Assembly (NCBI GenBank): GCA_017506865.1
Contig: JAFCMP010000179.1
Span: forward strand, 372,001 to 436,000
DNA from: Tribonema minus
Taxonomy: Eukaryota > Sar > Xanthophyceae > Tribonematales > Tribonemataceae
Direction of reading: 5' to 3'
DNA length: 64,000 bases
The position numbers and the translations under genes are program-made. Under the pieces are notes generated by a model, which ran no database searches, had not been told where the DNA came from, and saw only the letters and a program-made list of their open reading frames with translations. Of this stretch, positions 534 to 44,850 are shown piece after piece. How positions within the stretch are numbered: the stretch's first letter is position 1; the number at the start of each line of letters is the position of its first letter.

Positions 534-600
534 TCAGCTTTTGGCATTAAAAGATCTCCAGTAGGCCCGACCGTACTAATTGATGATCTCAGCACCAGCT
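534..600 (-). pseudogene. C-terminal remnant of SET-domain gene (left of transposon)
   Basis: This is the left flank of the transposon at 601-5033. Joining it to the right flank at one copy of the duplication continues the frame as PAGAEIIN, then a TAG stop (576-578), then YGRAYW in the same frame before a TGA at 534-536. SET domains characteristically end with GEEI..xYGxxYW, so both flanks appear to be halves of one SET gene. The in-frame TAG shows the gene was already dead or has decayed since. Confidence 0.55.
592..600. repeat. Left target-site duplication (9 bp) of IS4-type transposon
   Basis: GCACCAGCT occurs immediately outside the left terminal repeat and again at 5034-5042 outside the right one. 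A 9-bp duplication fits IS4-family transposition. Confidence 0.8.
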
Positions 601-621
601 CATTATTAGCAACTTAAGATC
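601..621 (+). repeat. Left terminal inverted repeat of IS4-type transposon
   Basis: CATTATTAGCAACTTAAGATC pairs with the reverse complement of the right end (5014-5033) over GCAACTTAAGATC, with scattered matches outside it. In TnpB/Fanzor systems the guide RNA usually arises from the element end next to the nuclease 3' end, which here is the interval 601-691. Confidence 0.75.
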
Positions 622-691
622 CGCAGGATTTCACCACGGTTATCAGAAGCACCGCTAATTGAATATGCTGCAGACTGTCTCTTTGACAAGA

Positions 692-3445
692 TTATGCATC
701 TTCCTCTTCCCCCACACCCCTGCATAGGTGCGGCGGCCGCGTCCTCCCCAGCAGCATGTTGATGCCGCATATGGCGATGTTCACTGAGGCGTTGATGTCC
801 CTGTCGATGAAACGGACTGAGCAGTCCAGGTTGTCGCCCTCTGGTGTACAAGATATGCATCGGAACACACGAGAGCCATTCACCTGAACTAAGTTCTTGC
901 CGCACCCGCAACAGGCCTTGGAAGTCCTAAACTCGTCCATCAACACAACAGGGACTAGGAGGGCGATAGCCCTTATGAGCGCCTTACGAGGCAGAGGACC
1001 TCTGCTACCGTGCCCAAACTGTGCGTTGCCAAAGAACACTACCCTAGTCCACGTCCGCCGGTCCCCAGCTAGGTTATCGCGCATGCGTGTGAGCAGCGCC
1101 TCCCTCTCCTCAGGCTCCGGCCCGATTTTGCGTAGCGCTGCCGCCTCAGCGCTCCGTCCAGCGATCTGTACCGCCATCCTCGATATCTCCCGCATCTTCG
1201 CCCTCTTTGCATCGAAACTTTTGCGTCTCCTCTCCCAGGAAAGCTTCTCATCCGCCATGACGATGAAGTGGCTGTGAAGCATGTTTGTGTAAGCGGCCGC
1301 CCCTCCTGGCGTGCGCATGGACACACTTGATAGTTGAGATATAGCATCACTGTAGCCCGTGTTGTCACGGCGCCTCTCACCTTCGAACTTGCGCCATGCC
1401 TTGGAGAGACTCAAGAACTTGTGATCCGATGCTGACCTGAAGGCAGGCTGTATCTTCTTGAAGTCTTCAGGGGATGTATCGCTTGATACGCGTGCCGCGG
1501 CCGCCGTGTAGAGCAGCTTCTGACCGGAGTCGACCCCGACTGCTTCGATGAAGCACCTCCTGTCCTTCTTGTTCAGGGCGGAGATGACTTGATCAGACAT
1601 CTTCTCTGCAGATCCGAACAGGCCTCTGGTGTGTGTATCTGCTTTGTAGACGTCCTTGATCGATGCGTACCCTTTCTCGATGAGCTCCGCCACACCTGGA
1701 ATGACGGCTGTGACTCGCTTGGTGGCGAGGGTGACGTTCACCTGAAGGCCGTCGGTGGTGATGTTGTTGACGAACCACGGAGGAGCTTTGTGACCGTACT
1801 CGCTGAGGTCCCCTTCGATCGTCCACTTTTGCCCCCAAAGGCATCGTATGCCCCCCCAAGCCAGCTTTCCCTTGCGTCCGAGAGGCTTCATCCGCGCTTC
1901 TCCACTTCTCTCCGCACCCCTAGGCACCCTGACCCCTACCTTGTCGTGCAGGTTGAGCATGCAGAGCCACCATCCCCTCTCCGTCATGTCTCCCGTTAGC
2001 CGCGCCTTCCAGTCCTTTCTGACTTGGCGGCTGCGTATACCTTCCTGCTGAAGAGCCCTCCATTCCGCTCGCGTGCCCCTCGCGTCACTGAGAAAGTCCT
2101 TGAGTGTGGGGACGCGCACAACGGGTTGTATGTTGTCCAGTGCCAGTTCGATTATGCTGGTGACGATGCGGTCATCTAGTGGGAGCATCATAGGCTGCAG
2201 CTCTGCGACCGGCAGCAGTGTGAAGCGCTTGGGTGGGAACATTGTGCCGGGCGTGCGCCGAGCCTCTAGCAACGCAGTTCTGATGTCTGAAACGCGCCTC
2301 TGCAGTCCGCACCACTGCACCTTCTGCTCCTGGGTCAGATCTCCATCGCCGTTCTCCATTACCCATGCGGGAGGCTCGATAGTGCGGAATGCGGGTAGTT
2401 GTTTCTGCGCTTCCGCCTTGGTCATCACCTTTGCCAGGTAAGGTTGGTCGTTGTTGATGGACGTCCAGAGCAGTTCCTTGGCCACCCGGTACTGCTCGTC
2501 CTCGCTCCTGAAAGCTGCCTCCGTATGCAGGACCCGGGGTTTGTCTCTGTAGATGTTCTTGAAGAATGTGCCCATCTCGTCCACCCGATCTTCATCCTCG
2601 TCCGCGCCATCTTCCACCTGGGCCCCCCTGAAACCTTCAGGCGGAGCGACACGGAACGGCTGAAGGCGATTTCTGATATATGTGAGACCAGACCCCATAG
2701 CTGCCCACCAATCCTCATGCAGCTGCTGCTGTCCATCGCTGCCTCGGGGGCGCACGAGAAAGGCTTCTACCATGGCAGCAGCCGCGGCGTCGTCCTGAAC
2801 AGCGGCGGCTCTCTGCAGTAGCTTCGCACCTGTCTTTATGACGTACGCGAAGTGCTCATCGCGGCGCCTGCTCCACGCGAGCCTCTCCAGGTAGCACATG
2901 AGATGATCCTGGATCCTCGATGTGAAAGACTTCACCACGTGTGCCGTGACGCTCACCTCGTACTGCTTCGTGAAGACATCTGAGGTGCGCAGAATGAAGT
3001 CACGCTTATACTGCTCTGGGAAGGGATGGTCTCGGATGTACGCGTCGATGAAGTCGTCCTGCAGCCGCTCTGCATCCGCCTGGTAGGTGCCGCCTATCAT
3101 CTGCTTGAACACCTGGGAGACCATGTTTCGATCGTAGAAGAAGACTGCGGCAGGATCCTGTTCTGCTTTGGCGTTGAGAGCGATGGTAACTGCATGACAC
3201 AAGGCGCCTGACGAGTTGGAGCATCTTACGACTTGCTGGTGCAGTGCCGTGGCAGCCTCGCTGTCGCCACGTCTGGTCACAGCGTTCCATGATGTCATGA
3301 CCGTCTTGACGTTGTATACTCCGTTGTCAGGGGCCTCAAAATTTTCGAGATCTAGTACTACCTGTTGGCATGGCTTATATGCTTTCTTCTTCTTCTTGGA
3401 CGCCTTCTTGGCCTTGGCCACCTTCTTAGACACCGCCTTTGCCAT
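692..3445 (-). CDS. Fanzor RNA-guided endonuclease (eukaryotic TnpB homologue)
   Basis: The 917-residue protein has a lysine-rich N-terminus (residues 1-23) that could act as a nuclear localisation signal. The C-terminal third holds the nuclease core: RuvC-I Asp639 in GVDSG, the FFGNAQF block near 804, Glu838 in MDEFRTSK, a zinc ribbon of Cys pairs (846/848 and 863/866) and RuvC-III Asp883 in DRDINASVNI. Fanzors are programmable RNA-guided DNA nucleases encoded within transposons of eukaryotes and their viruses. No early stop or frame break is visible, unlike the neighbouring transposase. The guide RNA is expected from the stop codon to the element end (691-601). The start is the first ATG, just before the basic tail. 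Confidence 0.9.
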   Translation of the reverse strand: MAKAVSKKVAKAKKASKKKKKAYKPCQQVVLDLENFEAPDNGVYNVKTVMTSWNAVTRRGDSEAATALHQQVVRCSNSSGALCHAVTIALNAKAEQDPAAVFFYDRNMVSQVFKQMIGGTYQADAERLQDDFIDAYIRDHPFPEQYKRDFILRTSDVFTKQYEVSVTAHVVKSFTSRIQDHLMCYLERLAWSRRRDEHFAYVIKTGAKLLQRAAAVQDDAAAAAMVEAFLVRPRGSDGQQQLHEDWWAAMGSGLTYIRNRLQPFRVAPPEGFRGAQVEDGADEDEDRVDEMGTFFKNIYRDKPRVLHTEAAFRSEDEQYRVAKELLWTSINNDQPYLAKVMTKAEAQKQLPAFRTIEPPAWVMENGDGDLTQEQKVQWCGLQRRVSDIRTALLEARRTPGTMFPPKRFTLLPVAELQPMMLPLDDRIVTSIIELALDNIQPVVRVPTLKDFLSDARGTRAEWRALQQEGIRSRQVRKDWKARLTGDMTERGWWLCMLNLHDKVGVRVPRGAERSGEARMKPLGRKGKLAWGGIRCLWGQKWTIEGDLSEYGHKAPPWFVNNITTDGLQVNVTLATKRVTAVIPGVAELIEKGYASIKDVYKADTHTRGLFGSAEKMSDQVISALNKKDRRCFIEAVGVDSGQKLLYTAAAARVSSDTSPEDFKKIQPAFRSASDHKFLSLSKAWRKFEGERRRDNTGYSDAISQLSSVSMRTPGGAAAYTNMLHSHFIVMADEKLSWERRRKSFDAKRAKMREISRMAVQIAGRSAEAAALRKIGPEPEEREALLTRMRDNLAGDRRTWTRVVFFGNAQFGHGSRGPLPRKALIRAIALLVPVVLMDEFRTSKACCGCGKNLVQVNGSRVFRCISCTPEGDNLDCSVRFIDRDINASVNIAICGINMLLGRTRPPHLCRGVGEEEDA

Positions 3446-3891
3446 TGTCTGATGGGCACGTCAGCCTGAAGCCCAATATGGGCTTAGACGGCGCTGCCAG
3501 AGGTTGTGATGGGTGTGGCTCTGGCAGTACAGCCATATGATTAAATCGCACCGGAGATTCGGGAAAATGCGAATCTCCTTGAATCCCGGATTAATTAAAC
3601 ACCTGCAGATTCGGAGGCTTTTCACCGTATCCTTCTGAATCTGGCATACATACCATCCTTGCTGTTGAACTTCAACCTGACTTCAAATTGGCCAATGGCT
3701 TCACTGCCATGATTGCCTCCAGCCTCTCATTTGCAGCATGCAAACAATTAGGGCTGCAACATTGGTTGACTTACGATGCAGATGTACGCGGAGCTGACCA
3801 AATGTATGATCATCAGGCGCACGTGGTGGACCGTGCGTGCGAGTGCGCCTGGCAGCATACAAGTGCAACATTTGCAGGCTCAAGCTCAAGA
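3446..3891. other. Spacer between Fanzor and transposase with a hairpin
   Basis: No convincing gene is seen. The arms GGAGATTCG (3553-3561) and CGAATCTCC (3570-3578) form a perfect 9-bp hairpin with an 8-base loop. It lies between the transposase 3' end and the Fanzor start and could be a transcript end or structured leader. Confidence 0.5.
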
Positions 3892-4979
3892 CTACCCTTC
3901 AGGAACTTCAAACCTTGAGTAGAGTATTTGCTCCAGGCTACCGCCGGATGACCACAGGTTCCCCAGGGAACGGACCGTGACTCTCACAAAAGAACTGTAC
4001 GGAAGACCCTTCTCTATGCATTTGGTTGCTAGCGCGGTCAGGGTTCTCATATTTTCGACTGCGTGGCGATAGTCGCCGGTTTCTCTCTTATGGTATACTG
4101 ATATGGAATCGAACAATACTCGAGCTTCTACTTCTTGCATCAGTGCCTTTAATGTCTTAGAATGCGTGTACGTCATGTTGAGTTTGCTTTTCAAACGCTT
4201 GAAGCTCAATTCGACTTTCCACCGTAGTGCGTATGTGCTCTTGACGCTAGCGCTACCCGTACTATAGTTTGTGAGACAGACATACACTTTCCCAGCAATA
4301 AAGTACTTCTACAGGAAACATCTTAGAAATGATCCATTAAACACAAGAGTGATAGGTCTGCTTGTGCAACTGTCTGCAAAGAACCTGTCGGTGAACCTAA
4401 AGGACTTCCTTCTCATTCTGAAAACCACTTTGACGCCCTTGTCTGTAGCAGCGCTCACCAGCTTTTTGGAGAAGTAGCCCCTGTCAAATATCATTGTATC
4501 TCCTTTGTTGACCACCTCCATGTGCTCCAGTGCAGATTGCCGTTCATCGAAATGTGACGATATGATAGAGTCATAGCACGTCTGGGTGTTTACATCCAGC
4601 AACGACGAGAGCATAGCAATTGGGTGCCTTGCAGGTCTTGAAACGGATTGACCATTTGTTCTGCTTTTGAAGCCGTACTTTTCAAACGAAGGGGGTACAC
4701 GGAACTTGGAGCCGTCCACTGCATATACACAAGTTGTGTGACGAGCTGTAGGGTCTTGTTCATTTGGCTAAATAGGCCTGCTGGCACTTTCATGCGAGCT
4801 TTTGATAAAGCCTGGTGGGTGAAGCAGGCGTCCTCTCTTGCCAAAATGTGACACAGTCCCTTTTTCTTGATGGATGCTGACATCAGATAAGAGAATATAG
4901 CCGCAGATGTGATCTTGCGTCTCCGCTCCTGCCACAACTTATCAGCATCCCTCAGTTCTGTGTACAGTTTTTTGAACAT
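3892..4979 (-). pseudogene. IS4-type DDE transposase, broken by a frameshift and a stop
   Basis: Three collinear segments make one transposase. The N-terminal part (from the ATG at 4979) ends near 4722, where the frame slips by 2 bases (or loses 1). The catalytic part then begins with VDGSKFRVP (first Asp) and includes FDRGYFSKK (second Asp). An in-frame TAG at 4309-4311 interrupts it before YALRWKVELSFKRLKSKL, the YREK-type motif bearing the catalytic Glu of IS4 enzymes. Known IS4 enzymes cut and paste DNA through terminal repeats, as found at this element's edges. The frame damage suggests this copy is inactive, barring sequence error. Confidence 0.85.
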
Positions 4980-5013
4980 GATGGTTACATGATCAAAACA
5001 TTTAAGTTGCCAA

Positions 5014-5033
5014 GATCTTAAGTTGCAACCACT
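5014..5033 (-). repeat. Right terminal inverted repeat of IS4-type transposon
   Basis: Read inward on the minus strand it is AGTGGTTGCAACTTAAGATC, matching the left end over GCAACTTAAGATC. It supplies the stop codon that now ends the interrupted SET reading frame. Confidence 0.75.
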
Positions 5034-5303
5034 GCACCAGCTGGTATAGTGCGGGTCGCCACCAACCAACCGGTTTCTGTGAAGCGGGCATTGCATGTGA
5101 GCCCTCTCCGCTGCGTCGCCAACTTGGCTGCTTTCTCAGCTTCACTCCGCACAGAGGCCTGGCGCAAGGCAATGGCGTCCCTTCCTGCTTCACTGTCAAC
5201 TTCAAGGAACAGATAGAAGCACATTGGTGAGGCACCATGTAGGGTAAGCTTGATCCCATCTGAACCGTTGTTGCACAGGTGATGCATGCTGGCAAAACCC
5301 GAT
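5034..5303 (-). pseudogene. SET-domain gene fragment, truncated by transposon insertion
   Basis: The minus-strand frame carries MHHLCNNGSDG, resembling the Asn-His/Cys-rich segment of SET methyltransferases, and then GWLVATRTIPAG, the conserved stretch before the terminal GEEI..YG. The frame runs straight into the transposon terminal repeat. The continuation with YGRAYW lies at 534-600 beyond the element. The N-terminal half of the domain is missing: a TAG precedes this segment and the stop of the ART-like gene follows at 5306. SET proteins methylate lysines, often on histones, and viral versions are known. This one looks non-functional. GCACCAGCT at 5034-5042 is the right target duplication. 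Confidence 0.55.
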
Positions 5304-5305
5304 AA

Positions 5306-6724
5306 CTATAACAGAGAGGCGCGTTTGCAGAGGTCCTTCAGTTTTTCCCACAGGTCGTGCGCCTTGGAGCCAAGCTCTGGCGAGAAATCTTGAGTGTATA
5401 GATGCTCTGCAAACGGCGCTACGTCTTCCAGCGTGAGGAGGTTGCAAAAGTCGCCTGCGTCGTAATTGTATCTTGTTATGGTGCACTGTTCCTGTGTGTA
5501 CGATGTGAAAGCATCGTCCCGGATCAAACGGCAGCCCGGTGGGAGAGCTATCTCAGCTTCGTATTCATTGTCTGACAGCAACATCATTGGGACGATGGGC
5601 TGCCCCGCTCGCACCAGTACCTCCAGCACTTGCGCATTTGCACGTGATCTGCTCCTCAGTGCTTTTGCGAATGATAGCGCGATGCCCTTTATTGTGCTAA
5701 AACTGTAAAATCCACTAGTGCAGATGTTGCCGGCAGGTATGCCGCCCATGCTTTGTCCCCTGTACAAAATAATGTCCACTGGAGAGCGGAACCAGAAAAA
5801 AGCAATGACGGCTGTCTGTGCCATGATGGTCACTGCGCTGTCATCTTCATCATCAAACCTTGACCTGCGCATTATCCGGTTGAACTCTGTGTACTGCAAG
5901 CCCGTGTAGGTCGCGTAAGGTAGCAAAGTAGCTATCTCAGCTGGTAGCAGTTCACGGCACACGCTCATAATGGCATCTTGTGGTGCTGCGATCCGTTCTC
6001 CACGGCTAAAACTCTTTTTCACAGCTTCAAGGAAGAGCTTCTGAAAATTTTTACCCAGAAACGACTGCAGAGCTTGCTCCAGAGATGTTTCATGCTCCGA
6101 CAACTTGGCGCAGCCGAGGGCTCTGCATTTGTCGGCTAGGTCGTAGTACCTCTTCAAGAGAAAAGGAACTTCAGAGGTGAGTATGATCCCCATCATGTAG
6201 GCACCATAGGTGTAGTTCCTGTTCCAGTCATTCTCCATGACATCGTCCAATTCTCGAAGGTGCTCTCTGATGAGAGGGAATTTGTCGGTTTCAGGAGTTG
6301 CCGCTATCGCGCTAAGGAGAAGAATTGTGGAGAAGTCCAGGTCTTCTGCCGTCTGGTGCTGGTCATCGCCCTTGCCACCAGTGCTGCCCAAACCTCCTGC
6401 CACATACGTGCCGAGGGATTGCAGAAATTGTAAAGGGTACGACAGCGTGGAATTGCTCATCTTCCGAGCTTTGACAGGATGGTCGGATGACGACAGCCGG
6501 CGTTTGCCGACGAGGCGTTCGATAATTTCGGACGCAACATCCGGGTCGTGTTCCGCAACGACATCTTTCAAATGTTGTGCCACTTTCTCAGCTTCTACCA
6601 CTTTCTCAGAGTCGTCCATCGATGTTTGATGGGGGACCGAGAAAAAAGCATCAGTCAAGTGGTCCATAGATGTTGGATAGGGGACTGCATGTGCTGCTCT
6701 GTAGGGTATGTACGCTTGAATCAT
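5306..6724 (-). CDS. ADP-ribosyltransferase-like protein (R-S-E class)
   Basis: The C-terminal domain of this 472-residue protein has the three motifs of arginine-type mono-ADP-ribosyltransferases in order: Arg322 in ILYRGQS, the STS-like FYSFST (Ser341/Ser343), and ExE (Glu389/Glu391) in NEYEAEIALPPG. Residues 130-290 are mainly helical, as in the N-terminal part of related enzymes. The family moves ADP-ribose from NAD+ to a protein side chain; here the target is unknown and may be a host factor. No signal peptide is visible, so action inside the infected cell is likely. Residues 16-40 contain two similar PxxTSMD segments. Other in-frame ATGs near the N-terminus make the exact start uncertain. 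Confidence 0.72.
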   Translation of the reverse strand: MIQAYIPYRAAHAVPYPTSMDHLTDAFFSVPHQTSMDDSEKVVEAEKVAQHLKDVVAEHDPDVASEIIERLVGKRRLSSSDHPVKARKMSNSTLSYPLQFLQSLGTYVAGGLGSTGGKGDDQHQTAEDLDFSTILLLSAIAATPETDKFPLIREHLRELDDVMENDWNRNYTYGAYMMGIILTSEVPFLLKRYYDLADKCRALGCAKLSEHETSLEQALQSFLGKNFQKLFLEAVKKSFSRGERIAAPQDAIMSVCRELLPAEIATLLPYATYTGLQYTEFNRIMRRSRFDDEDDSAVTIMAQTAVIAFFWFRSPVDIILYRGQSMGGIPAGNICTSGFYSFSTIKGIALSFAKALRSRSRANAQVLEVLVRAGQPIVPMMLLSDNEYEAEIALPPGCRLIRDDAFTSYTQEQCTITRYNYDAGDFCNLLTLEDVAPFAEHLYTQDFSPELGSKAHDLWEKLKDLCKRASLL

Positions 6725-8085: not shown

Positions 8086-8664
8086 CTAAGGGATGAAACA
8101 GACTGTTGTAGTGATGCTGAGGGTCTGATCGTCGCGCACCCACTCTGCGAACACTGACGCATCCCACTCCTTGAATCTGGGAAAGAAGGATCTGACGCCC
8201 CCCACCTTTGAATCGTTCCTTGCCTTTGAGACTGCTGTCTTGGTCAAATGCTGTGTGCCCGTTCGAGCCGAGGCAGTGAACGTGATCCGAAGAGTGGGGA
8301 TGATGCAAGGGACATCTGCTGCATGTGCAGCTTTGACAAACAGGCCAATCGATTTGAGGCCATCATCCCCGACTGCAGCAGAAAAGTGCAGCGTCAACTT
8401 GTACCCTGCATAGTAGAAGATGGGGGCTGCCTCTACAGGCATTCTGTGCTTATGAGAGGGATGGTCAATGGCGGCTGTGACTGCGTTGGCAATGTGCGTC
8501 AGTGGCACCATGACTGTGAACTGGGCAGGTGTGGAGGGGGGGATGTCACCAGCATAAAGCGTCTTGTACACGCCTTCACTGTACTTTACGAGATCTTGAG
8601 TTGCAGAAAATGTGTCTGCGTCGCTGAGCGCGATCGAGTGTAGCGCAATGAACTCTCGTGTCCA
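8086..8664 (-). CDS. Unknown protein, 5'-truncated at a transposon-end-like sequence
   Basis: The frame is open for 192 codons from WTREFIAL to FIP and a stop at 8086, but has no ATG near its start. It begins exactly where a copy of the IS4-type terminal repeat (8665-8685) ends. Either an element removed the 5' end, or that sequence is an intron 3' end (it finishes ...AATAATGAG). The protein has alternating strands and short helices and no recognised family. In-frame GTG (8571) or the internal ATG of MVPLTH could serve as starts. Confidence 0.45.
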   Translation of the reverse strand, partial: WTREFIALHSIALSDADTFSATQDLVKYSEGVYKTLYAGDIPPSTPAQFTVMVPLTHIANAVTAAIDHPSHKHRMPVEAAPIFYYAGYKLTLHFSAAVGDDGLKSIGLFVKAAHAADVPCIIPTLRITFTASARTGTQHLTKTAVSKARNDSKVGGVRSFFPRFKEWDASVFAEWVRDDQTLSITTTVCFIP

Positions 8665-8685
8665 CTCATTATTAGAAACTTAAGA
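8665..8685 (+). repeat. Solitary copy of the IS4-type transposon left end
   Basis: CTCATTATTAGAAACTTAAGA matches 599-619 (CTCATTATTAGCAACTTAAGA) with one difference. No matching right end is found nearby, so it is probably a relic of a second insertion. Confidence 0.55.
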
Positions 8686-8688
8686 GAT

Positions 8689-8744
8689 CGTCTCGTCTCG
8701 TGATGTCAGACAACAGGTCGTCTCGTCTCGCGATGTCAGACAAC
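8689..8744 (+). repeat. Two direct repeats, 26 nt at 30-nt spacing
   Basis: CGTCTCGTCTCGTGATGTCA plus AGACAAC-type tail occurs at 8689-8714 and, with one change, at 8719-8744. The pair sits directly inside the solitary transposon end and may belong to the same relic. Confidence 0.7.
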
Positions 8745-42523: not shown

Positions 42524-43258
42524 TTATTCCTCCTCACTGTCACTCTCGTCACTGCTGTCGTCGCTTTCCGAAGCCAACACTTCGAAGGCCCAGTCTTGCA
42601 TTTCAGGTGAATCACAGAAGTTGTCAAAAATAGCCTGGGCAAAGACTTTGCAGATCCTGTTGTCGTGACAGTCGCAGCCTACAAAGTTATTGTCGAAGTG
42701 TTCCTGGCTTTCACACGAAGCGCTGTGAAAGTAGCTGACCAGGTAGCGCAGTCGCTCCATATCCTCAATCAGCGCGACAGCTCTGGCGATGGGGTAGATG
42801 TCGTAGGTGAGCATGCGCTCATTCTGCTGGTCGTGCTGCAGAAGGAAGTCTATCTCTGCCAGGGCGCCACGCTTGTCGTTCCAAGTCCAAAATATGAAGT
42901 TGTGATACCATGCATCAAAGATGCTCTTGCACGCAGGGTCCTTGATGTCTGCATACTTTTCGATCAACTGGTTCACATCATAGAAGTGGTCGCGGACATC
43001 ACGAGTGGAACAGATGCTGTTGAGCCAGTCATCCCGGCACACGTGTTCGATAGCAGCGCTGATCAGCGGCATTCCCTCCTCAAGTGCATCCCTCAACTCA
43101 TACACATGGTCGGGTAGTGCTGTTGAAGGAATGTGACGTTCCAGGTGAGATTGCCTCCATTCCACACACACCAACGCAGTTGTGGGCTGCCACTGCTGTT
43201 CGATGTGCTCCAGGAAGTCTGTCTCCATTGCGATCCTGATGGCTCTATCGTCACTCAT
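42524..43258 (-). CDS. Unknown acidic-tailed protein (244 aa)
   Basis: The protein is helical with many aromatic and acidic residues (VCRDDWLNSICSTRDVRDHF, FDAWYHNFIFWTWNDKRGA, YDIYPIARAVALIEDMERL). It ends in a Ser/Asp/Glu tail (SESDDSSDESDSEEE), which could bind basic proteins or metals. The repeated helices resemble an ankyrin-like or TPR-like solenoid, but no family is recognised. Confidence 0.55.
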   Translation of the reverse strand: MSDDRAIRIAMETDFLEHIEQQWQPTTALVCVEWRQSHLERHIPSTALPDHVYELRDALEEGMPLISAAIEHVCRDDWLNSICSTRDVRDHFYDVNQLIEKYADIKDPACKSIFDAWYHNFIFWTWNDKRGALAEIDFLLQHDQQNERMLTYDIYPIARAVALIEDMERLRYLVSYFHSASCESQEHFDNNFVGCDCHDNRICKVFAQAIFDNFCDSPEMQDWAFEVLASESDDSSDESDSEEE

Positions 43259-43369
43259 TGGCTTCGATTGTGCAGGTAGTGAACCACAAGAAACTGGGCT
43301 ATGGTGATCGAATAATGCAGGTTGGATTTATAGCACGAATCTCTGTGAATTTGTCATGCGGCGTGTTAC

Positions 43370-44850
43370 TGCTATACTTGAAGTTCCTGGTCCTGGCCCT
43401 GCCAAAATATGTATTTCTCAGAGGTTGACAGTGCAAATAAATCAGGCTGCTGATGAAAAGTGTAGGTGAGATCAGTCTGATGCAGGTTCAATTCGTCCCT
43501 ACATGAGAGCTCACCACACCAAGTCTTGAAGCCCACACTTGAAATTTAGTGGATACTTGAAGTTACATTAAATGCCCAACAACCACATCCTACTGTCAGT
43601 AGTGCAGGTGAGATCAATGCCACACAGGTTCAAGCTGTCCCTACATGAGTAATGGCCATACTAGGCCATGATGCACACACTTGAATTTATACTTGAAGTT
43701 CCAGAGGCTGGGCCTGTCGAAAAAAGTATTTCTCAGAGGCTGACCCTAAATGGCGCAGGTACGACGCTCGCTAGATTTTCGTAAAGTGCAAATAAATCAG
43801 GCTGCTGATCGAAAGTGTAGGTGAGATCAGTCTGATGCAGGTTCAAACTGTCCCTACATCAGAGCTCGCCACACCAGGCCTTGAGGCCCACACTTGAACT
43901 TGAGTGTATACTTGAAGTTACATTGAATGCCCAACAACGACGTCCTAATGTTAGTAGTGTAGGTGAGATCGATGCCACACAGGTTCAAACTGTCCCTACA
44001 TGAGTAATGGCCATACTAGGCCTTAAGGCGCACACTTGAACTTATGCTTGAAGTTCCAGAGGCTGGGCCTGTCGAAAAAAGTATTTCTCAGAGGCTGACC
44101 CTGAATGGCACCGGTACGACGCTCGCTAAATTTTCGTAAAGTGCAAATAAATCAGGCTGCTGATCGAAAGTGTAGGTGAGATCAGTCTAGTGCAGGTTCA
44201 AGCCTCCCCTACATGAGCAGTCGCCATACTGAGCCTCTGTGGTCAAACTTGAACTTGAGTGTATACTTGAAGTTACATTGAATGCCCAACAACCACGTCC
44301 TAATGTTAGTAGTGTAGGTGAGATCGATGCCACACAGGTTCAAACTGTCCCTACATGAGCAATGGCCATACTATGCCATAAGGCGCACATTTGAACTTAT
44401 GCTTGAAGTTCCAGAGGCTGAGCCTGTCGAAAAAAGTATTTCTCAGAGGCTGACCCTAAATGGCACCGGTACGACCCTCGCTAGATTTTCGTAAAGTGCA
44501 AATAAATCAGGCTGCTGATCGAAAGTGTAGGTGAGATCAGTCTGATGCAGGTTCAAACTGTACCTACATGAGTAGTGGCCATACCAGGCCATGAGGCACA
44601 CACTTGAACTTTAGTGTATACTTGAAGTTACTTTTAATGCCCAACAACCACGTCCTAATGTTAGTAGTGTAGGTGAGATCAATGCCACACAGGTTCAAAC
44701 TGTCCCTACATGAGTAATGGCCATACCAAGCCCTGATGCACACACTTGAACTTTTGTGGATACTTGAGCTTCCTTATCCTATGCCTGGCAGAGGCTGTGT
44801 AGGTGAGATAAGTCTGATGCAGGTCGAAACCGCCCCTTTGTGCAAAAGGT
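43370..44850 (+). repeat. 355-bp tandem repeat array (four units) of two half-types
   Basis: The 10-mer TGTAGGTGAG (or variant) recurs at 43461, 43603, 43816, 43958, 44171, 44313, 44526, 44668 and 44797. Distances alternate between 142 and 213, giving an exact 355-bp unit, about four copies with a partial one at the end. Units share CCAGAGGCTGGGCCTGTCG and GTAAAGTGCAAATAAATCAG. Each half has TGTAGG and a nearby CCCTACA that can pair. No ORF is conserved. It fills the 43259-44925 gap. Inverted copies lie at 61060-61615. Confidence 0.92.

Follow-up and report, generated by a model that had tools for sequence, protein, structure and literature searches.

What does an RNA-guided nuclease do for the transposon that carries it? 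To our knowledge, the natural role of Fanzor for its transposon is unsettled. The question is raised by a locus in a 64,000-nucleotide stretch of the yellow-green alga Tribonema minus (contig C179:372001-436000 of a 158-Mb genome). We call this whole stretch the window; bare coordinates refer to it, C-numbers denote contigs and L-numbers loci. Here, a 4434-bp IS4-type transposon with a Fanzor (601..5034) carries both of its genes on the minus strand, the transposase first and the Fanzor second. The best explanation, which we hold to be probable on the sequence comparisons below, is a virus-borne IS4-family transposon with a Fanzor1-type nuclease, in which the Fanzor would be guided to empty sites.

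How firmly is the element itself established? A first-pass annotation of this DNA had proposed an IS4-type DDE transposon with a Fanzor1-type nuclease, inverted repeats and a 9-bp target duplication, bounded at 592-5042. The 13-mer GCAACTTAAGATC, which it had placed in inverted orientation at both ends, is exact at 609-621 (plus strand) and 5014-5026 (minus strand), with a chance expectation of 1.5 when up to 2 mismatches are counted. The 9-mer GCACCAGCT does stand on both sides (592-600 and 5034-5042). It also occurs at a third place (34060), against 1.7 occurrences expected by chance in the window, and therefore proves little by itself. This expectation is what the idea of a chance duplication and chance inverted repeats, with no transposon at all, has in its favour. 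The idea retains practically no probability and is refuted by the other copies, which share the exact ends within different flanks, and by the existence of empty sites. It is from these copies and from the empty site that the proof comes.

A whole-genome search with the element returned 17 matching pieces. The Fanzor-side end is preserved in seven other copies. In six of them the match begins at the T at 600; in the one on C59 it begins at base 593, since the flank there reads CACCATGT by coincidence. Three other copies match through to G5034, so the ninth base of the supposed duplication is the element's own last base. Copies with both flanks have 8-bp duplications of their own: ATGCATCA (L007), AGATGTAT (L009/L015) and GAACCAAT with one mismatch (L012). 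From the shared ends and these duplications it follows that the element spans 601-5034 and that its duplication is CACCAGCT (593..600 on the Fanzor side, 5035..5042 on the transposase side), which is present as a single copy in the empty site L054. A 9-bp duplication is ruled out by this comparison of ends and flanks, and the wider bounds are corrected with it. What stands of the annotation is the overall architecture, which the copies and the empty site support, together with the claim that the ends are known to the base; the check that it proposed on other copies shows these ends to be conserved. Its remark that such precision is rarely possible does not hold: the 8-bp arrangement has been described in EsV-1 and in proviruses of Ectocarpus, and the genome studied here has 20 elements whose duplication could be read on both sides (16 perfect 8-bp duplications, 4 with one mismatch). 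A duplication partner was searched for and not found for L034 and L043; the duplications of L101 and L067 differ, so these two are not the ends of one intact insertion.

The terminal inverted repeat is 21 bp long with 17 matching positions (CATTATTAGCAACTTAAGATC at 601..621, plus strand; CAGTGGTTGCAACTTAAGATC at 5014..5034, minus strand), and the element ends 5'-CA...TG-3'. On the transposase side, a second, subterminal GCAACTTAA repeat lies 16 bp further inward (5002..5010, minus strand). It is missing on the Fanzor side; the two ends are not equivalent. We regard this anatomy (ends, duplication and genes) as practically certain.

Has the element moved recently enough to leave traces? The check for an empty site gave one. 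A search with the right flank found a 70-bp, 90% match on C90 (L054), and when the two window flanks are joined, this locus runs collinear with them (614 of 680 bases identical, 90%) around one GCACCAGCT. The reciprocal case also exists. For the C90 copy L007, the two flanks joined together align with window 42584-43507 (893 of 924 identical, 97%), where a single ATGCATCA with ACC before it marks the empty target site of this sister copy (42910..42917, plus strand). Since each viral locus is occupied where its sister is empty, movement took place after the two viral sequences separated. The stretch at 42524-43258 is a gene of unknown function, uninterrupted in the window and split by the Fanzor element in the C90 sister copy.

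That these loci are viral follows from their gene content. The window encodes a VLTF3-like late transcription factor, a DEAD-type helicase and other genes, and VLTF3 and giant-virus capsid genes are found on C179, C90, C112 and C21, among other contigs. These genes place the window element in endogenous giant-virus-derived sequence. Seven of the eight copies that keep the Fanzor-side end are on C179, C90 or C112, and the eighth is on C59. In the 2026 paper on Ectocarpus proviruses, Tribonema minus sequences serve as an outgroup and phaeovirus-like recombinases are reported in Tribonema (PMC13236599; this and the other papers cited are drawn on as far as excerpts of their text go).

Do these elements choose their sites? 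We write sites in the Fanzor orientation, with the sign | marking the start of the duplication. A transposase-side end was looked for at 32 loci and found at 24 (not at L010, L033, L038, L041, L045, L049, L051 or L052; that of L041 was later read as L104). The motif count has 30 rows, namely the 24 loci, L009, L100-L102, L104 and L105. L103 is not among them, and L037 counts in neither group; for L040 and L105, membership of group B rests on end sequence and not on a tree. In groups W, A and C, CC precedes the duplication in 22 of 22 cases and CC|A is found in 21 of 22, against a CCA background of 1.4%. Group B has GA in 7 of 7 and T|GA in 6 of 7, with TGA at 2.0% in the background. The mirror-image motif occurs on the other side in 1 of 18 and 0 of 4. 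The p values for the motif treat sites as independent. The window element reads ACC|A, the ACC (minus-strand reading) lying directly before the duplication at 5043..5045; it is a predicted part of the Fanzor's target-adjacent motif.

Ends found later agree with this count. Of 21 repeat-pattern matches, six gave new ends after the motif had been written down, and five of them fit their group (the flank of one, L104, was already among the sequences obtained, though unread, before the motif was written down); the sixth, L103, fits only with a one-base shift. The pattern for the Fanzor-side end has 42 matches in the genome against 6 for a reversed control; 28 of the 42 were read. The duplication starts with A in 19 of the 20 fetched ends (C in L060) and in all 8 others. 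Flanks are shared by L071/L072 and by L068/L073. A tally of 14/14 counts L057 (which is L026's end) twice; the independent count is 13/13. CC|A was also considered as element-internal sequence or as part of a longer duplication. This was rejected, because both empty sites contain it and the Fanzor-side junction does not. These counts evidently describe a one-sided target motif that straddles the duplication in about 30 related elements. No such motif was described in the open-licence literature searched, with searches that were not aimed at it by name, and it is new as far as that search goes.

Which protein reads this motif? From a symmetric transposase pair, one would not expect a one-sided motif. 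One alternative is that the motif is a pure target preference of an IS4 transposase that tells its unlike ends apart, the Fanzor being a passenger whose own target motif is unrelated. We give this a minority chance. The ends are indeed unlike, with the double repeat on one side only, and the five group B elements present in the trees form one clade for the transposase and for the Fanzor alike. Conserved target arms have been described for some bacterial IS4 elements (PMC2266710), and the motif may therefore belong to the transposase alone. In addition, the CC|A core stays unchanged where Fanzors have been swapped, which favours the transposase, and it is common to two Fanzor clades that are only 7-21% identical in their N-terminal parts. 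All these points weigh against a role of the Fanzor in the motif.

The swaps were seen in trees built from 20 transposases and 22 Fanzors, for the most part from their N-terminal portions, in which two Fanzor clades, Fz-I (that of the window) and Fz-II, are mixed among the transposase groups; a profile comparison relates their C-terminal halves with a probability of 99.6%. The transposases of L026 and L031 are 86% identical and their Fanzors 15%, and those of L034 and L035 are 87% and 13% identical (Fanzor N-terminal part in both pairs), which we read as cargo exchange. The base before CC (position -3), however, tracks the Fanzor and not the transposase: all 10 Fz-II elements have C there, none of the 7 Fz-I elements does, and the base switches with the Fanzor in both swapped pairs (Fisher p 5e-5 per element and 0.029 per lineage, for a pattern noticed post hoc). 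The L037-type transposases also argue against a preference of the transposase alone. L037 and L038, with their own Fanzor, have sites that start GA and GA, whereas elements on C346 and C68 join such transposases (71-72% identical over the remaining part) to Fz-I and have bases after the Fanzor-side ends that start AG and AT, their transposase-side ends being lost; of the four, L037 alone could be read on both sides, and L038 on one side. At L109 (C346:905861) and L110 (C68:1418931), Fz-I elements with an N-terminally cut transposase abut GC-rich-looking DNA and have no readable end.

A prospective test of the -3 base, with the prediction written beforehand, covered 11 stretches from 7 candidate elements, none with a readable transposase-side end. 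The nuclease-free control, bacterial IS4 relatives, comprised 17 loci, of which 16 were searched for ends; three gave any end pair and one was convincing (L097, 10-bp duplication), too few for a motif to be read. Fanzor motifs that have been measured are located 5' of the target and vary from enzyme to enzyme (PMC10432273, PMC11423790). On balance, part of the motif may be the Fanzor's target-adjacent motif, a reading that we find likelier than its opposite.

Is there a working nuclease to read it? The predicted Fanzor1-type RNA-guided nuclease gene (692..3445, minus strand) is intact and encodes 917 amino acids. The published Fanzor1 motif, D-X(125-275)-[TS][TS]XX-C4 zinc finger-X(5-50)-RD (PMC3627910), is found in full, with D639, a spacer of 201 residues, T841-S842 in the TSxxC stretch, four cysteines and R882-D883. 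A profile search matches the protein to the solved TnpB-like protein L79 (E 2e-4; a single-sequence search gives only E 0.95), and NCBIfam guided_TnpB is matched at E 3.6e-4, far under the curated cut-off. These matches point to a sequence relationship with TnpB-type nucleases. Several results weigh on the other side. The Pfam TNB domain (TnpB zinc domain) reaches E 1.6e-5 and 25.4 bits against a cut-off of 26.3; sequence searches of solved structures listed two TnpB-type entries, none named Fanzor, and the same kind of search with Fz-II returned nothing; the AlphaFold model is poor (mean pLDDT 46.8).

Four full-length intact Fanzor copies exist (the window, L007, L008 and L010). Their six pairs give dN/dS of 0.15-0.24 at dS of 0.10-0.41; the values are 0.23-0.46 when one partner is the truncated L009 or L011, and 0.20-0.24 when it is the old copy L012. 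The ratios clearly indicate purifying selection on the Fanzor, although the transposase of the window element is dead. They also bear on the view that the element is an inert relic whose Fanzor frame is open merely because the insertion is recent. A broken transposase and several truncated copies are what such a view would lead one to expect, and yet the longest gene is the intact one and selection is seen over the dS range just given; we consider it unlikely. L012 (C112:1427215-1430070) has an internal deletion, with the Fanzor frame running open into transposase-looking sequence.

What would guide the Fanzor? From its stop codon to the element end runs a noncoding tail (601..689, minus strand) that is 91% identical to that of L007 (81/89) and 76% identical to that of the old copy L012; the spacer between the genes has 69% identity plus 102 gap positions, and dS is 0.37. 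The tail is evidently conserved up to the element end, and it is a predicted guide-RNA scaffold. The guide segment would consist of the duplication and the flank just outside the element (581..600, minus strand), of which 18 nt match at the empty site. In a genome search, the 18-nt guide-like target with ACC had one mismatch-free site, the empty C90 locus (C90:1004344-1004364). At the element's own occupied site, ATG stands where ACC stands at the empty target. The same 18-mer also occurs at C24:391999-392019, with CGC in place of ACC before it.

This placement of the guide has points against it. The tail can form a predicted stem beside the element end; its fold is no more stable than those of shuffled sequences (z -0.23), and two-sided change is seen in only 2 of 29 consensus pairs. 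For Fanzor1 guide RNAs, the inverted repeat and the duplication have been predicted to lie within the scaffold (PMC10711439), and those of insect viruses to run about 15 nt past the duplication (PMC10711439). If all 8 duplication bases were scaffold here, the present placement of guide and motif would be wrong, since the target motif would then have to fall inside the duplication. Within the duplication, only the first base is conserved (the first two in group B).

How might the parts work together? Under the explanation that we prefer, a transposase now supplied by other copies would cut and paste the element beside a CC|A-type motif, and the Fanzor's guide RNA would be made up of the conserved tail and the flank just outside the element. 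The Fanzor would cut any copy of that flank with ACC(A) before it, be it the site left empty after excision or the empty allele of a related virus; with the occupied copy as repair template, the element would be restored or spread. The occupied site would be spared because the element end (..AATAATG) replaces ACC. This mechanistic part, RNA-guided cutting of empty sites with restoration or spread, seems to us rather more plausible than otherwise. Retention or homing logic of this sort has been discussed for TnpB. A preprint, drawn on in excerpt, concerns gene drive of insertion sequences in plasmids. More tentatively, and at somewhat less than even chances, the marks may be footprints of natural Fanzor target-adjacent motifs, ACC(A)/TCC(A) versus CCC(A) versus T(GA), combined with gene drive between co-resident giant viruses. 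The window copy would then be guided to C90:1004344-1004364 and the C90 copy to window 42910, and cutting the sister's empty allele would spread the element or damage a rival virus.

The IS4-family DDE transposase of the window (3892..4979, minus strand) is broken by a frameshift near residue 79 and an in-frame stop near 4309. The element is therefore not autonomous, and the first-pass label of a complete element fails in this respect. Of the window-family copies seen, L007 alone has an intact transposase. This protein matches Pfam DDE_Tnp_1 (E 1.3e-11), has the YREK signature (Y250-R253-E257-K264) and scores 94 bits against NF033592 (cut-off 115); the pieces in the window score 22.3 and 24.6 bits in Pfam against a cut-off of 23. 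The catalytic residues D89-D166-E257 of L007 are separated by 76 and 90 residues, the second spacer being shorter than in the IS4 range D(60-110)D(100-150)E (PMC2266710). The 8-bp duplication and 5'-CA ends agree with the IS4-like pattern (duplications of about 8-13 bp and 5'-CA ends; IS4Sa, CA and 8-10 bp). Bacterial relatives are only 24-29% identical. A search of the genome with the transposase found 42 matching places.

What did the insertion interrupt? The halves of a SET-like gene had been described on the two sides. Remnants are indeed present on both, and calling them halves overstates them: about 26 codons on the right, the transposase side (5043..5120, minus strand), and about 18 on the left, where the last codons of the gene lie (539..592, minus strand) with a stop inside. 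On the right flank, homology to L054 extends for 78 bp from the junction and no further, which means that the SET-like gene already differed at that point. The intact paralogue part at L054 is barely above the Pfam SET cut-off (22.8 bits against 22.4), and a Pfam scan of the right piece in the window gave no match. Adjoining the element, a 472-aa open reading frame (5306-6724) has a C-terminal half that, by eye, presumably resembles an ADP-ribosyltransferase, with no Pfam match. Further on, 8659..8690 (minus strand) holds a lone Fanzor-side end of a related element, a relic in a different flank; no transposase-side partner was found nearby.

How much of this is already known? IS4-type transposons with Fanzor1 and an 8-bp duplication are already published for algal viruses and proviruses (PMC3627910, PMC13236599). 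ESvi-1B and ESv-2 (= ISvEsV1_1), of EsV-1 and an integrated relative, combine an IS4-type transposase, Fanzor1 and terminal inverted repeats in a virus-borne setting in a stramenopile alga, as here (PMC3627910), and ESvi-1B shares the 8-bp duplication (Bao and Jurka 2013, PMC3627910). The window element has the same combination, with both genes in one element, inverted repeats and an 8-bp duplication inside viral DNA. The Ectocarpus set also includes related elements that share the transposase part and differ in the Fanzor part (PMC3627910). What differs from ESvi-1B and ESv-2, in a comparison by description and not by sequence, is the yellow-green algal host, about 30 related elements with readable ends, two empty sites and the one-sided motif. 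Scans of viral contigs with the Fanzor, the transposase and three alignments found no relatives in a set in which the presence of EsV-1 is unconfirmed. Endogenous viral elements of Ectocarpus strain Ec267 likewise have an IS4 transposase, an 8-nt duplication, a Fanzor and polymorphic provirus insertions (PMC13236599). In the excerpted text the Ec267 element is said to be restricted to viral elements (PMC13236599), which is nearly so for the window family, whereas the wider Tribonema set of IS4-Fanzor elements extends to contigs in which no capsid gene was detected.

Among bacterial systems, the IS4Sa and IS4 subgroups of the IS4 family share DDE_Tnp_1 and YREK, and IS4Sa has 5'-CA ends and 8-10 bp duplications, as here (PMC2266710). 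Unlike the bacterial IS4 elements described there (PMC2266710), the present one carries a Fanzor and has a second DDE spacer of 90 instead of 100-150 residues. TnpB in IS200-IS605 elements is likewise an RNA-guided nuclease in a mobile element, with a junction motif and a guide taken from the flank (PMC10711439); here the junction motif is seen, and the guide is predicted. IS200/605 elements are said to insert on the downstream side of a short motif (PMC10711439), whereas here a DDE transposase and a target duplication are present.

For this family of transposons, the ends, the predicted guide segment, two reciprocal empty alleles and the predicted target-adjacent motif are now fixed to the base. 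Three sets keep the transposase clade and swap the Fanzor, which makes a role of the nuclease in site choice directly testable. If it is true that the -3 base follows the Fanzor, the target motifs of uncharacterised Fanzors would be readable from genome sequence alone.

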